Source: Caulifigura coniformis (GTDB lineage Bacteria; Planctomycetota; Planctomycetia; Planctomycetales; Planctomycetaceae). Taken from it: DNA of 64,000 bases. The translations under genes were made by a program, and so were the position numbers. This document shows positions 12,535-15,600 of the stretch, in pieces. The notes beneath the pieces were generated by a model. The model saw only the letters and a list, made by a program, of their open reading frames with translations, did not search any database and was not told the origin of the DNA. Position 1 is the stretch's first letter. The number at the start of each line of letters is the position of its first letter. The stretch spans positions 3,546,314 through 3,610,313 of the forward strand of contig NZ_CP036271.1 of the NCBI RefSeq assembly GCF_007745175.1, read 5' to 3'.

Positions 12535-12595
12535 TGCAACTCCGGGCAGCAATGGGGCCGCTGGGACTCGAACCCAGAACCAAAGGATTATGAGT
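12535..12595. repeat. Left attachment repeat of tRNA island (truncated tRNA copy)
   Basis: A 61-bp perfect direct repeat of 15509-15569. It contains the 3' 43 bases of the tRNA(CAU) gene (12553-12595, minus strand), ending in the anticodon loop, plus 18 bases beyond the tRNA 3' end. The 5' half of the tRNA is missing, so this copy is not a functional tRNA. Confidence 0.92.
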
Positions 12596-12787
12596 GAGGA
12601 TGGCGAATCGCAGAAGCCAATAAAAGCTCACGGTTTGCGTCGACACGAAAACGGGCTTACAGCGGAAACGTCAGTACTTCAGCAGCTCGCCGATCTAATC
12701 TCCCTCTGGCCCGAACTTCCCAGGCCGGTGAGAGACTGGATCGTCACCTGTGCGAAGGCAGCCATCCCCGTCGTCCGGGTGTCGTGA
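12590..12787 (+). pseudogene. Detached C-terminal extension of the island integrase
   Basis: An open frame of 65 residues whose first codons, ATG AGT, are the last six bases of the left attachment repeat. In the excised circle it would lie in frame directly after the integrase codons that cross the right repeat (15564 ATG AGT). Its C-terminal part, LADLISLWPELPRPVRDWIV, resembles the end of planctomycete integrases as I remember them. In the integrated state it is separated from the integrase body by the whole island, and I see no independent ribosome binding site. I therefore treat it as the split end of the integrase, not as a separate gene. Confidence 0.6.
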
Positions 12788-12856
12788 TCGTGGCGTCGGC
12801 TCGCGAGCGAACTTCGGAAAGGAGACGCAGAATGTCTACGCCGAAGGGGTAATGCG

Positions 12857-13306
12857 CTACGGCCCAAGCCACTTCGCACGCCTGGAAGTATTACGAATCA
12901 GAACAGCGCGCTCGCCGGCACTGTTGCTTAACTTGATCTCAGACGCGGCCACGGAATCGATCGTGAGTTCGTTCCACGTCTGGGAGGTACTTTTTCCATT
13001 AATCTCCTTCCGAACTTTCAATTTCAGGATACGGAGCCGTGTCCACAGATCAGCATCGCGGTCAGCGCTGACGAAGAGAACGGAATCGGACACACGCCAG
13101 CGATGCGGCCTCGAAAACGGATCGCCCTTCAGCCAGAGACGACCATCTTCACAGAAGTCGTAGTGTTCAATTCCGTAAGGCCCCCAATCGGCAGTCCACG
13201 TCCCCACCAGCCTCGGATCGATCCTCGGACGAGTCGACCACCACAGCCCGCCGCCAAGGATAAGCAGGACGAGTACGGCGATGGTGAGTCGGCGACGGCG
13301 AGTCAT
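12857..13306 (-). CDS. Island membrane-anchored protein, paralogue 3 of 3
   Basis: A 149-residue protein: basic start MTRRRRL, one transmembrane helix (TIAVLVLLILGGGLWW), then an extracytoplasmic beta-rich domain. It shares with the next two genes the pattern of an Arg-rich start, a helix ending in Trp residues, a Pro-Arg/Asp segment, then VGTW and a strand ending in HRWRVSD. Its ATG overlaps the TGA of paralogue 2 as ATGA, showing translational coupling. The family resembles small lipocalin-like planctomycete proteins, but no ligand or activity is known. It is island cargo. Confidence 0.65.
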   Translation of the reverse strand: MTRRRRLTIAVLVLLILGGGLWWSTRPRIDPRLVGTWTADWGPYGIEHYDFCEDGRLWLKGDPFSRPHRWRVSDSVLFVSADRDADLWTRLRILKLKVRKEINGKSTSQTWNELTIDSVAASEIKLSNSAGERAVLIRNTSRRAKWLGP

Positions 13307-13785
13307 TGGTCACTCTGGTCGGCGACGCGTGTCCAGGTGAACGGGAAGTCCGGAAAGTTGGGACCCACTGGTTTCAACCTGATCTCATTAGGACCGACCG
13401 CTACTAACTCGAACTCCCTGGACTCTCCCCCCGGTAGCGGCCGTCCCGTGAGATTTGAGTAGAACAACCGTGCGTCATCCCTGATATCGTTCCAGAGCGA
13501 CGGTGCTTCGAGTTCAGGCGGCGTCCTTAACGTGAGTCGATTGCCGGATACGTGCCACCGGAAGGCCGCGGGCGTCCAAGTCTTCAGGTCGGAGTTCAAC
13601 ACACGGGCACGTCCCGTGGACTCCAGAGCAAGCACTTCACCGATCGTTCCCAAGCCTCTCCATCTGCCTACAAACCTCTGATCCACCTGCGGCCAAAACC
13701 ACCAGCACAGCCCCACCGCGAGGACAGCGACCACGACGACTACCCGTCGCCTGTGCCGGTTCGGTGGTGACGGGGAAGAGGTCAT
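13303..13785 (-). CDS. Island membrane-anchored protein, paralogue 2 of 3
   Basis: A 160-residue protein with an Arg-rich N-terminus, a helix VVVVVAVLAVGLCWWFWP, and an outer domain starting VDQRFVGRWRG. The strand AFRWHVSGNRLTL aligns with HRWRVSDSVLFV of paralogue 3 and YSWRVQDETLIV of paralogue 1. Both ends overlap neighbours by four bases (ATGA), so the three genes are translated as a coupled set. A two-residue-spaced Trp cluster at the membrane boundary is shared by all three. The function is unknown; divergent tandem copies suggest duplication inside the island. Confidence 0.65.
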   Translation of the reverse strand: MTSSPSPPNRHRRRVVVVVAVLAVGLCWWFWPQVDQRFVGRWRGLGTIGEVLALESTGRARVLNSDLKTWTPAAFRWHVSGNRLTLRTPPELEAPSLWNDIRDDARLFYSNLTGRPLPGGESREFELVAVGPNEIRLKPVGPNFPDFPFTWTRVADQSDQ

Positions 13786-14255
13786 TCGGGGATGCGGGTG
13801 AGAATCAGATTGAACTCCGATGATTCCGGCCTCCTGATCACGAATCGGTCTGATGAGATTTCAGACAACAACATGGTGGATGCATCATTCGAATCAAGAC
13901 TCACTGTTCCGCCGCGGAATCCGCAAAAGAACGCGGCAAGCATGTGGCGGAGTCCTACGGGGGTCGCAGCGGGAAATACTGATCCGACAATGAGTGTTTC
14001 ATCCTGAACACGCCATGAATACCGATGCGGCTCCCGGGCAATGGAATCAACCTGACTTGCGGTTCCGTTTGAGCGAAACGTAACCGTGCCGTAGACCGAT
14101 GAGTCCTTCTGCCAGACCATTCGCCATTTCCCGACGAACCTCGCATCCCCTCGCGGCCAGCACCACCAAGCCGCGGTCGTCACGAGCACGAGAACGAACG
14201 CGACGACAAGCCAGCGGCGTCGGCGTTTCTTCGTCGGTGGTGTGCTCGGTTCCAT
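13782..14255 (-). CDS. Island membrane-anchored protein, paralogue 1 of 3
   Basis: A 157-residue protein, first of the coupled minus-strand set. It begins with MEPSTPPTKKRRRRW, then one helix (LVVAFVLVLVTTAAWWCW) and an outer domain with DARFVGKWRM and RYSWRVQDETLIV. The ATG at 14253-14255 has GGAGG upstream, so the longer frame to 14483 is rejected. The promoter must lie between it and the divergent gene at 14362, a gap of 106 bases. It shares the RFVGKWR motif with paralogue 2. No enzymatic residues are recognised. Confidence 0.65.
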   Translation of the reverse strand: MEPSTPPTKKRRRRWLVVAFVLVLVTTAAWWCWPRGDARFVGKWRMVWQKDSSVYGTVTFRSNGTASQVDSIAREPHRYSWRVQDETLIVGSVFPAATPVGLRHMLAAFFCGFRGGTVSLDSNDASTMLLSEISSDRFVIRRPESSEFNLILTRIPE

Positions 14256-14361
14256 CAGGTAGCCCTCCGAGGTGAAGTCTACCGGAGGGCAGGGGGGCGC
14301 GGCGAGAAGGGACGGCCGGTAGACTCGTCGACCATCCGACGAAAGGCATCTGGAGGTTGCG

Positions 14362-14538
14362 GTGAGCGAAACAGGGTTGAAGAGCATCAGCGCAGCGATC
14401 ATCGTTGGGGGTGGGTGCTTGATTATCGGCCTGGCAAATACCGGGAGCCAGGACAGTGCAGTCGTGACGGGGCTAATTGGCATTGGCGTCGTTGTGACGG
14501 GAATCTACGAATGGCGGCAGCTCTTGAAGCGCCCATGA
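14362..14538 (+). CDS. Small two-helix membrane protein in island
   Basis: A 58-residue protein starting at GTG 14362 with a near-ideal GGAGG five bases upstream. It has two hydrophobic segments (ISAAIIVGGGCLIIGLA and AVVTGLIGIGVVVTGIY) joined by a short polar loop, and a basic tail WRQLLKRP. Its TGA overlaps the ATG of the next gene (ATGA), so the two are coupled. It is divergent from the three paralogues. Function unknown. Confidence 0.6.
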   Translation: MSETGLKSISAAIIVGGGCLIIGLANTGSQDSAVVTGLIGIGVVVTGIYEWRQLLKRP

Positions 14539-14921
14539 CCGACGACACCCCTCCGAAGCCGAAACGCAGACGCTGGCGATGGGTCTGCGTCGCCCTGGTG
14601 GCAATGTCACTCGCAGGCGGTGCGGTCCCCGTTTGGGACAATCGAGTTGAGCAACGGGCGCAGGCGTGGCTGGCCGAAGCGTCGAAGCGGAAACTGCTGA
14701 TCGCGTACGACACCGTGGGCATCATCCCGGGGATTGAACACGTGTTCGGCAAACAGCTCCTGGGGCGCCGTCAGATCACCGTGGGCGTCTTCGGCATGCA
14801 GGACGCGCAGAATCTGAAAATGATGCCGCCTTGCCCGGTGCGGTTGGTCATCAATGTCTGCGGCAGTCCGTGGGATGTCGTCGAGTGGCTCCGCCTGCAC
14901 TTTGGAAATGCGATCGAATGA
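14535..14921 (+). CDS. Island single-helix exported/anchored protein
   Basis: A 128-residue protein with a basic N-terminus (PPKPKRRRWRWVC), one membrane helix (VALVAMSLAGGAVPVW) and an outer domain of about 90 residues with no recognised motif. The Arg-rich-plus-Trp start resembles that of the three minus-strand paralogues, although the rest does not obviously align. It starts at the ATG overlapping the preceding stop codon. A further ATGA at its own stop opens a 14-codon frame only. Likely island cargo of unknown role. Confidence 0.6.
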   Translation: MTDDTPPKPKRRRWRWVCVALVAMSLAGGAVPVWDNRVEQRAQAWLAEASKRKLLIAYDTVGIIPGIEHVFGKQLLGRRQITVGVFGMQDAQNLKMMPPCPVRLVINVCGSPWDVVEWLRLHFGNAIE

Positions 14922-15005
14922 CCGAACCCCGCATCATCGTCGCCGAGTCGCACGGCCACTGAAACGCCTGGTTTGAGGACCGGCCGCACGAGACTTTCGG
15001 CGGTA

Positions 15006-15581
15006 ACACGCTGGGGACCGCCTGTCTTCAAGATGCCGCACGAGACGGACGTAGCAGAGATGCTCCGTAGAGATGTCAACGCGGCGCGGGAGGAGTGGTT
15101 GTACGGTGCTGGTGACGACGTACAGGAGCACGCTAGGCGGCCAGCCTCGGACTTCCTGTCAGTCCAGAATCACGACGGAGCGGTCATCGACTTCCACGCA
15201 CTTAGGCACACCTGCGGAGCTTGGTTGGCGAAGGCCGGCAATCACCCGAAGGTGGTTCAGACGATCATGCGACACTCGACCATCACACTGACGATGGGCA
15301 CGTACGGTCATCTGTTTCCGGGCCAGGAGTCGGAGGCTGTCGCGAAGCTGCCGGAAATGGTCCCGTTACAGTGGAATTCACAGTGTTCGGGTGACACGTC
15401 GCCGCAATCGGGTGCAGCTCCTTGCAGCGTGATGAAAGGCCGGTCGAAAAAAGAAAGGAGCCGCAAAGCCTGCGTGGAGAGCGATTTACAGCTCTCCCTG
15501 CAGTGCCATGCAACTCCGGGCAGCAATGGGGCCGCTGGGACTCGAACCCAGAACCAAAGGATTATGAGTCCTCTGCTCTAA
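15006..15581 (+). pseudogene. 5'-truncated tyrosine integrase of the tRNA island
   Basis: About 190 residues matching the C-terminal catalytic half of a tyrosine recombinase: TRWGPPVFKMPHETDVAEML, then HALRHTCGAW (His and Arg of the catalytic set) and IMRHSTITLTMGTYGHLFP with the second His and the Tyr nucleophile. The N-terminal DNA-binding domain and the first catalytic Arg are missing, and no start lies in a sensible place, so this is a remnant. The 3' end runs through the right attachment repeat and the tRNA, giving the residues AAGTRTQNQRIMSPLL before the TAA. Integrases of this type insert at tRNA anticodon loops, which fits the location exactly. Confidence 0.75.
15509..15569. repeat. 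Right attachment repeat of tRNA island
   Basis: A 61-bp perfect copy of 12535-12595, lying across the 3' half of the intact tRNA gene and 18 bases beyond it. The offset between copies is 2974 bases, which would be the size of the excised circle. Confidence 0.92.
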
Positions 15582-15600
15582 CCGATTGAGCTACAGCCCC
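15527..15600 (-). tRNA. tRNA with CAU anticodon (Met elongator or Ile2)
   Basis: A 74-base cloverleaf on the minus strand. The acceptor arm is GGGGCTG/CGGCCCC with one G-U pair, the D stem is GCTC/GAGC, the anticodon loop is CTCATAA (anticodon CAT) and the T stem is CTGGG/CCCAG with a TTCGAGT loop. CCA is not encoded. The anticodon alone cannot separate elongator Met from the lysidine-modified Ile tRNA. This is the attachment site of the adjacent island and has been left intact. Confidence 0.9.

Follow-up and report, generated by a model that had tools for sequence, protein, structure and literature searches.

Planctomycete integrase genes that span their attachment site exchange a conserved C-terminal module on integration

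Does an integrase gene that contains the attachment (att) site of its own element encode a different protein once the element is integrated, and if so, what does the protein lose? The question is raised by a 64,000-nucleotide stretch of the genome of Caulifigura coniformis (contig NZ_CP036271.1; hereafter the window), in which a 3-kb element bounded by a 61-bp direct repeat sits in a tRNA-Met gene. The first-pass annotation of the window had proposed that the integrase frame crosses the att core and that integration removes a C-terminal extension encoded at the far end of the element. The analysis was extended to relatives of the element throughout the Planctomycetota. The reading reached, to which we assign a probability of about 0.82, is that the integrase gene spans attP, that integration severs a conserved C-terminal module (hereafter the tail) which excision restores, and that the tail would serve or promote integration.

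The genome in question (G000; G, C and L numbers are our handles for genomes, contigs and loci) is a single contig of 6.76 Mb. A 41-nt part of the repeat was found at two sites only in the window with up to three mismatches allowed, none being expected. As had been proposed, the integrase frame (14973–15581, forward strand) runs into the right att core and terminates in the tRNA, with the residues NQRIMSPLL, and the ATG AGT at 12590 lies in the same register, which is open to 12787 (65 codons, 63 of them after ATG AGT). The end given for this extension, LISLWPELPRPVRDWIV, had to be corrected, since the frame continues for 13 residues beyond it (TCAKAAIPVVRVS). The integrase of the window lacks a complete catalytic domain: Pfam Phage_integrase covers profile positions 88–168 of 172 only, the N-terminal half being absent, and the first catalytic Arg presumably falls in the missing half. 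The copy in the window is decayed and non-autonomous; it displays the anatomy and cannot itself act as a switch. The idea that the end of the protein reports the state of the element stands as a description of the anatomy and is not supported for this copy, whose integrase is a truncated remnant.

Intact relatives of the integrase are numerous. An intact 465-aa paralogue, whose frame reads into a tRNA-Lys gene, is encoded some 154 kb from the element, and the genome holds three further integrase frames of 374–469 codons. Matches to the integrase fragment were found in 74 of 99 relatives searched, and among the relative loci fetched many integrase frames extend into a tRNA gene. Of the 80 loci in a separate scan with named organisms, 58 had an integrase frame that reached a tRNA gene, antisense to it in 52 and in the sense orientation in 6. 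The architecture described below, in which the frame leads on into the tail, was also seen with a sense-oriented tRNA, in G076:C15, G008, L237 and L239. Of 80 integrase relatives, 78 were from Planctomycetota and two were from contigs of metagenome-assembled genomes (MAGs) filed under Nealsonbacteria and Paceibacterota. Intact relatives matched PF00589 (E-values of 2.5e-22 for L252, 2.2e-16 for L145 and 3.8e-12 for L002), and the residues Arg...His-x-x-Arg...His...Tyr, which we take to have their usual catalytic roles, were invariant in their alignment, as in lambda-type tyrosine recombinases.

The circle joint was rebuilt for 40 elements inserted in many tRNA genes, and in 36 of them the integrase frame continued past the core for 52–96 residues, all ending in the same motif of about 30 residues (L-x6-W-x2-L). 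The removal of a C-terminal extension by integration, proposed from one locus, was thus found in 36 of 40 elements. In 35 of the 36, at least 354 open codons of the integrase frame preceded the core, the window being the exception, and of the 72 alternative frames in these elements 62 closed no more than 13 codons from the core. The nominal chance of such agreement with random frames is about 2e-17 for 35 cases, a figure that treats as independent elements which are not fully so. Chance, rejected on the early closure of the other frames and on the shared motif, is excluded as the source of the 63-codon frame, in itself weak evidence, because 36 of 40 elements reach the same motif in frame. The observation is real and holds much more widely than at the one locus that prompted it.

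Many of the 40 elements had been selected for integrase and tail matches on one contig, not for frame. In a sample chosen from the integrase side and not picked for the tail, 15 of 17 had the tail in frame. Five of six came from a first set of ten elements with a tRNA just downstream of the integrase, four of which had no core; these five continued for 60–88 residues to the shared motif. The other 10 of 11 came from the 80-locus scan, where 12 loci had an upstream repeat of at least 20 nt and one of these (L258) was left out, having no tRNA at the integrase end. Overall, 46 candidate elements gave, in an initial round, 35 with integrase and tail in the same frame, four in different frames and seven with no core/tail pair; in a second round, 41 of the 46 were treated (G092, G002 at 4.77 Mb, G086, G043 and L242, all pairless, were out), 40 had a core and 36 were in frame. 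Taking the longest shared word as the core caught arm-like repeats in G037:C8, L230, G098 and G002 (3.83 Mb), and cores overlapping the tRNA were used instead, upon which L230 had no core and was dropped. The tail of L198 is weak (14 bits).

Tandem insertions bear on the coupling of the two frames. In G032:C23, two elements occupy one tRNA-Ser gene and their integrases read the tRNA in different frames; the tail at the left end of each element is in the frame of its own integrase, and the frame across the mixed junction closes at the core. This is the best natural control for frame coupling. In G390:C270, where both of two tandem elements use one frame, the first integrase runs on into the tail of the second element; this open reading frame (ORF), although uninterrupted, proved to be a tandem junction.

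The first-pass annotation had also suggested, as a check set beforehand, that a circular copy should carry the tRNA-derived and the left-end parts in one frame. Such a copy was found in contig JAQTSY010000011.1 (L252/L286; 15,590 bp), where a single ORF of 579 codons comprises the integrase, a tRNA-Arg-like half and the tail. The contig has an exact terminal repeat of 127 bp, as circular assemblies usually do, and ARAGORN detected no tRNA in it. An integrase ORF crossing the att core in the circle is accordingly seen in this contig and in the 36 rebuilt joints. No uninterrupted form was found in two scans of viral contigs (33 loci), and plasmid and phage collections yielded distant integrases only, of less than 60% identity. 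Other ORFs of the circular contig resemble a type I restriction-modification set, as recognised from the sequence, no search having been made. In the database the contig belongs to a Paceibacterota MAG, and JABMRB010000560.1 (L191) to a Nealsonbacteria MAG, both probably through mis-binning.

The tail is widespread. A tail profile matched 64 of the 99 relatives at an E-value of 0.01, and a larger profile matched 109 of 392 genomes drawn across the phylum at 0.001. Among the relatives, the 30 top tail loci included 24 with a tRNA piece in an open frame within 330 nt upstream of the tail, versus 1 of 54 control regions. For the phylum-wide tail loci, a tRNA piece was present in 15 of 29 examined (30 listed), in 11 of them in an open frame, versus 2 of 53 controls; the two sets of loci share some elements. 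The lower frequency across the phylum likely reflects other targets or short cores.

In an alignment of 36 tails, identity was 0.52 at the first codon position, 0.66 at the second and 0.37 at the third, compared with 0.30, 0.29 and 0.26 in the unaligned linker, which varies freely. Because the second position is the most conserved and the third the least, the tail is taken to be under selection as protein. Tails with 13–38% protein identity to that of the window still share the L-W-L residues. The tail examples scanned matched no Pfam, NCBIfam or PHROG family and no PDB sequence at a meaningful E-value. In the model of a circle-form integrase, residues 405–534, which the stretch with the core and the arm-like repeats encodes, are predicted to be disordered (predicted local distance difference test, pLDDT, about 30) and the tail to form a two-helix hairpin at 536–568, with a pLDDT of about 90 over most of it; this prediction rests on a fold of the tail alone with 15 sequences, since the full-length alignment covers the tail by L252 only. 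In this one model, every folded part except the C-terminal hairpin precedes the core.

Tails were also seen in other settings. An enzyme-like ORF of 462 codons (L108, G080:C9:14-94) ends in the tail, as if a protein gene had served as target. Four tail relics lie in a 30-kb section of the Caulifigura genome (G000:C1:2381424-2410244; L150, L151), one of them near a tRNA-Arg gene, possibly as a result of repeated insertion and decay in one region.

Arm-like repeats flank the core. In 25 of 40 elements, each side of the core carried a pair of the same 9-bp word (one mismatch allowed) at a spacing of 10–13 bp; this was so for 8 of 240 cross-element controls and for 0 of 200 shuffled ones. In 24 of the 25, the paired words lay 118–194 bp before and 37–73 bp after the core. 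Paired repeats of this kind resemble arm-type integrase sites by position and pairing, and are regarded here as putative sites. Where the frame is intact, they are part of the coding sequence, and the tail lies beyond them. Strict tests failed in 15 of 40 elements, including the window, where they scored nothing; the degenerate TTACAG-type pairs of the window sit at the arm offsets of other elements (+61/+73 on the left side). Table 1 lists these pairs with the other features of the window.

Table 1. Positions of the integrase, att and tail features of the element in the window
Feature	Position	Strand	Remarks
Tyrosine integrase frame, 5'-truncated	14973-15581	+	C-terminal RIMSPLL tRNA-derived; 64% identity to intact paralogue of the same genome
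Left-end continuation of integrase frame, 63 codons + stop	12596-12787	+	Joined in the circle only
Conserved C-terminal tail module (LADLISLWPELPRPVRDWIV region), severed by integration	12665-12784	+	Motif common to 35 further elements
attL core, 61-nt direct repeat	12535-12595	.	Displaced 3' part of tRNA-Met + flank; 100% identical to 15509-15569
attR core, 61-nt direct repeat	15509-15569	.	Within regenerated tRNA-Met gene
tRNA-Met(cat), integration target, intact	15527-15600	-	ARAGORN
Candidate arm-type pair, integrase side, in integrase frame	15366-15383	+	TTACAG / TCACAG, period 12; by eye and one-mismatch words
Candidate arm-type pair, left-end side, in extension	12657-12674	+	TTACAG / CGTCAG, period 12; by eye and one-mismatch words

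Between the tail and the integrase, the element of the window carries three adjoining ORFs on the reverse strand (12857–14273), each with a hydrophobic N-terminal stretch as judged by eye; in a library scan, two had sub-cut-off SH3-like or lipocalin-like matches and one had none. They are possibly related cargo genes. With its identical att sites, the element may, speculatively, be mobilised in trans.

Several observations weigh against the reading given above. Four of the 40 rebuilt elements fail: in G038 the rebuilt joint has no tail, in L189 a tail-like stretch was seen by eye in another frame, and in G071 and G088 the integrase frames are broken. Full-length relatives devoid of the left-end segment had been named in the first-pass annotation as a finding that would tell against it; G038 is tailless, and 36 of 40 elements carry the segment. 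The tail is therefore not universal, given that G038 lacks it and a few joints are ambiguous. In four further loci (L194, L199, L217 and L264), the integrase frame crosses a tRNA-like stretch and neither an intact tRNA nor an in-frame tail was found; these may be decayed attR sites or tailless joints. In L154/L191, which are on one contig, the tail sits in an ORF of a separate frame, roughly 1 kb downstream from the integrase. Two loci, L145 (G012:C333) and L105 (G091:C2:3191654), hold an uninterrupted ORF of integrase and tail with no tRNA piece, which indicates that severing is not obligatory; their att sites were looked for and not found. The circular contig came from the scan of genome contigs and is the sole circle seen. 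Finally, a channel-like ORF of 313 aa (by eye; L088, G034:C130:20019) ends in the tail motif with no upstream tRNA piece; proteins other than integrases may also carry the module.

Combined, these results show that integration swaps the C-terminus of the integrase and strands the tail, which the circle carries joined to the enzyme. In the proposed mechanism, the circle would hold one ORF encoding a lambda-type integrase, a disordered linker, whose DNA would contain an arm site, the tRNA-like core and a second arm site, and the helical-hairpin tail. Recombination with the tRNA gene would swap all sequence 3' of the crossover, so that the integrated gene would end in or just past the tRNA (SPLL in the window, longer readthrough in some elements) and the tail would be left at the opposite end of the element, detached from its gene, to be rejoined on excision. 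The tail may be needed for the integrative reaction, or may promote it, through protein-protein contact in the attP complex. Without it, the enzyme made from the integrated element would recombine less readily or would need a partner factor, and the integrated state would be stabilised. We infer that the tail serves the integrative reaction and that its loss damps or redirects the enzyme; phage Mx8, in which the shortened integrase is reported to have lower activity or a changed specificity, supports this view by analogy.

The failure of integrases to undo their own work is usually ascribed to a separate directionality factor. In its strongest form, the proposal is a phylum-wide switch, where the tailed enzyme made from the circle can integrate the element and its tailless counterpart cannot, or performs excision only; the state of the DNA would then set direction through an unnamed module, and attP, arms and core, would be a coded flexible linker. 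We put this form at somewhat below even odds. A less likely reading holds that the exchange is real but neutral, both enzyme forms working alike and the overlap of int and attP making a compact travelling module. Some enzyme must excise, the integrated element encodes the tailless form only, and the free variation of the linker is in keeping with neutrality; against this, the tail occurs throughout the phylum and is conserved as protein although joined in the circle only, where a tail of no use would be expected to degenerate or to be removed by an upstream stop.

It is also unlikely, in our judgement, that the integrase disables itself in the manner of archaeal 'suicidal' integrases, the truncated enzyme being inactive and excision being performed in trans by the full-length integrase of another element. 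The three further integrase frames in G000 could supply such an enzyme, and the element of the window retains identical att sites with no intact integrase of its own. However, integration leaves the catalytic domain whole as far as the Tyr, whereas SSV1-type integrases are split into parts thought inactive, and the shortened form of the Mx8 integrase is reported to be less active or altered rather than dead.

It is highly improbable that the left-end ORF constitutes a small gene of its own, such as an excisionase gene adjoining attL. The anticodon of tRNA-Met does supply an ATG, as at 12590, but in 29 of 36 elements the interval from core to tail contains no ATG, and in 13 of 36 none of ATG, GTG and TTG, so the separate start that the first-pass annotation had named as evidence against itself was not borne out, and no conserved start was found. 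Uninterrupted fusions exist, and the frame of the tail is that of its own integrase in 36 of 40 elements despite differing tRNA frames; because the frames match element by element, a separate gene is implausible, and it was rejected on this matching, the G032:C23 tandem and the start-codon counts. Equally hard to credit is conservation at the DNA level, as a binding site, with the open frame a by-product or chance, for although arm-like repeats occupy the same stretch, the tail lies beyond them, the codon-position pattern is that of protein, and tails with low protein identity to that of the window share L-W-L.

This arrangement accounts for the tRNA-derived C-termini of these planctomycete integrases, and a conserved module joined to the integrase in the circle only provides many natural replicates for the question of whether the state of the DNA sets direction. 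The recombinase part of the circle-form model matches the folds of the lambda, Tn1549 and Brujita integrases; to our knowledge, no search having been made, none of these has the tail or an attP inside int.

The principle of an attachment site within the gene is already known from several systems. Mycobacteriophage BPs has attP in its repressor gene; the protein made after integration is shorter and differs in state, the part lost carrying an ssrA-like degradation tag (PMC4557955). The planctomycete elements likewise have attP in a coding gene, and differ in that the protein is an integrase and the lost part a predicted folded hairpin. The removed segment has an internal L-W-L helical motif and variable last residues, with no ssrA-like tag by inspection, and a degradation-tag role fits less well with an internal motif that is predicted to be folded. 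Streptococcal integrative and conjugative elements in rumA carry att in the gene of a serine integrase and exchange 3' parts on integration (PMC4701971); they differ in recombinase and in having a protein-coding target, and no conserved tail is mentioned in what is available of that account.

In the archaeal 'suicidal' integrases of SSV1, pTN3 and pT26-2, att also lies within the integrase gene, which integration splits into N and C parts thought inactive (PMC8371274). By contrast, the planctomycete recombinase would, according to the model, keep all of its folded domains and lose the C-terminal module alone. A close counterpart is the integrase of Myxococcus phage Mx8 (and Mx9), a tyrosine integrase whose gene spans attP; in Mx8, integration swaps 112 C-terminal residues for 13 and activity is lowered or altered (PMC4701971, PMC6070905). 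The planctomycete elements qualify the view of recombinases that alter their own gene as an archaeal speciality. The Mx8 integrase (AF396866) is without the tail motif, the best match being of 1.5 bits at residues 147–157 and not at the C-terminus. No paper on attP-spanning planctomycete integrases was found in the open-access literature searched. Whereas Mx8 represents one Myxococcus phage lineage, the planctomycete elements combine one tail with many tRNA targets across the Planctomycetota, and the severing of one conserved, unnamed module in this manner across a bacterial phylum, with attP as a coded linker, looks new.

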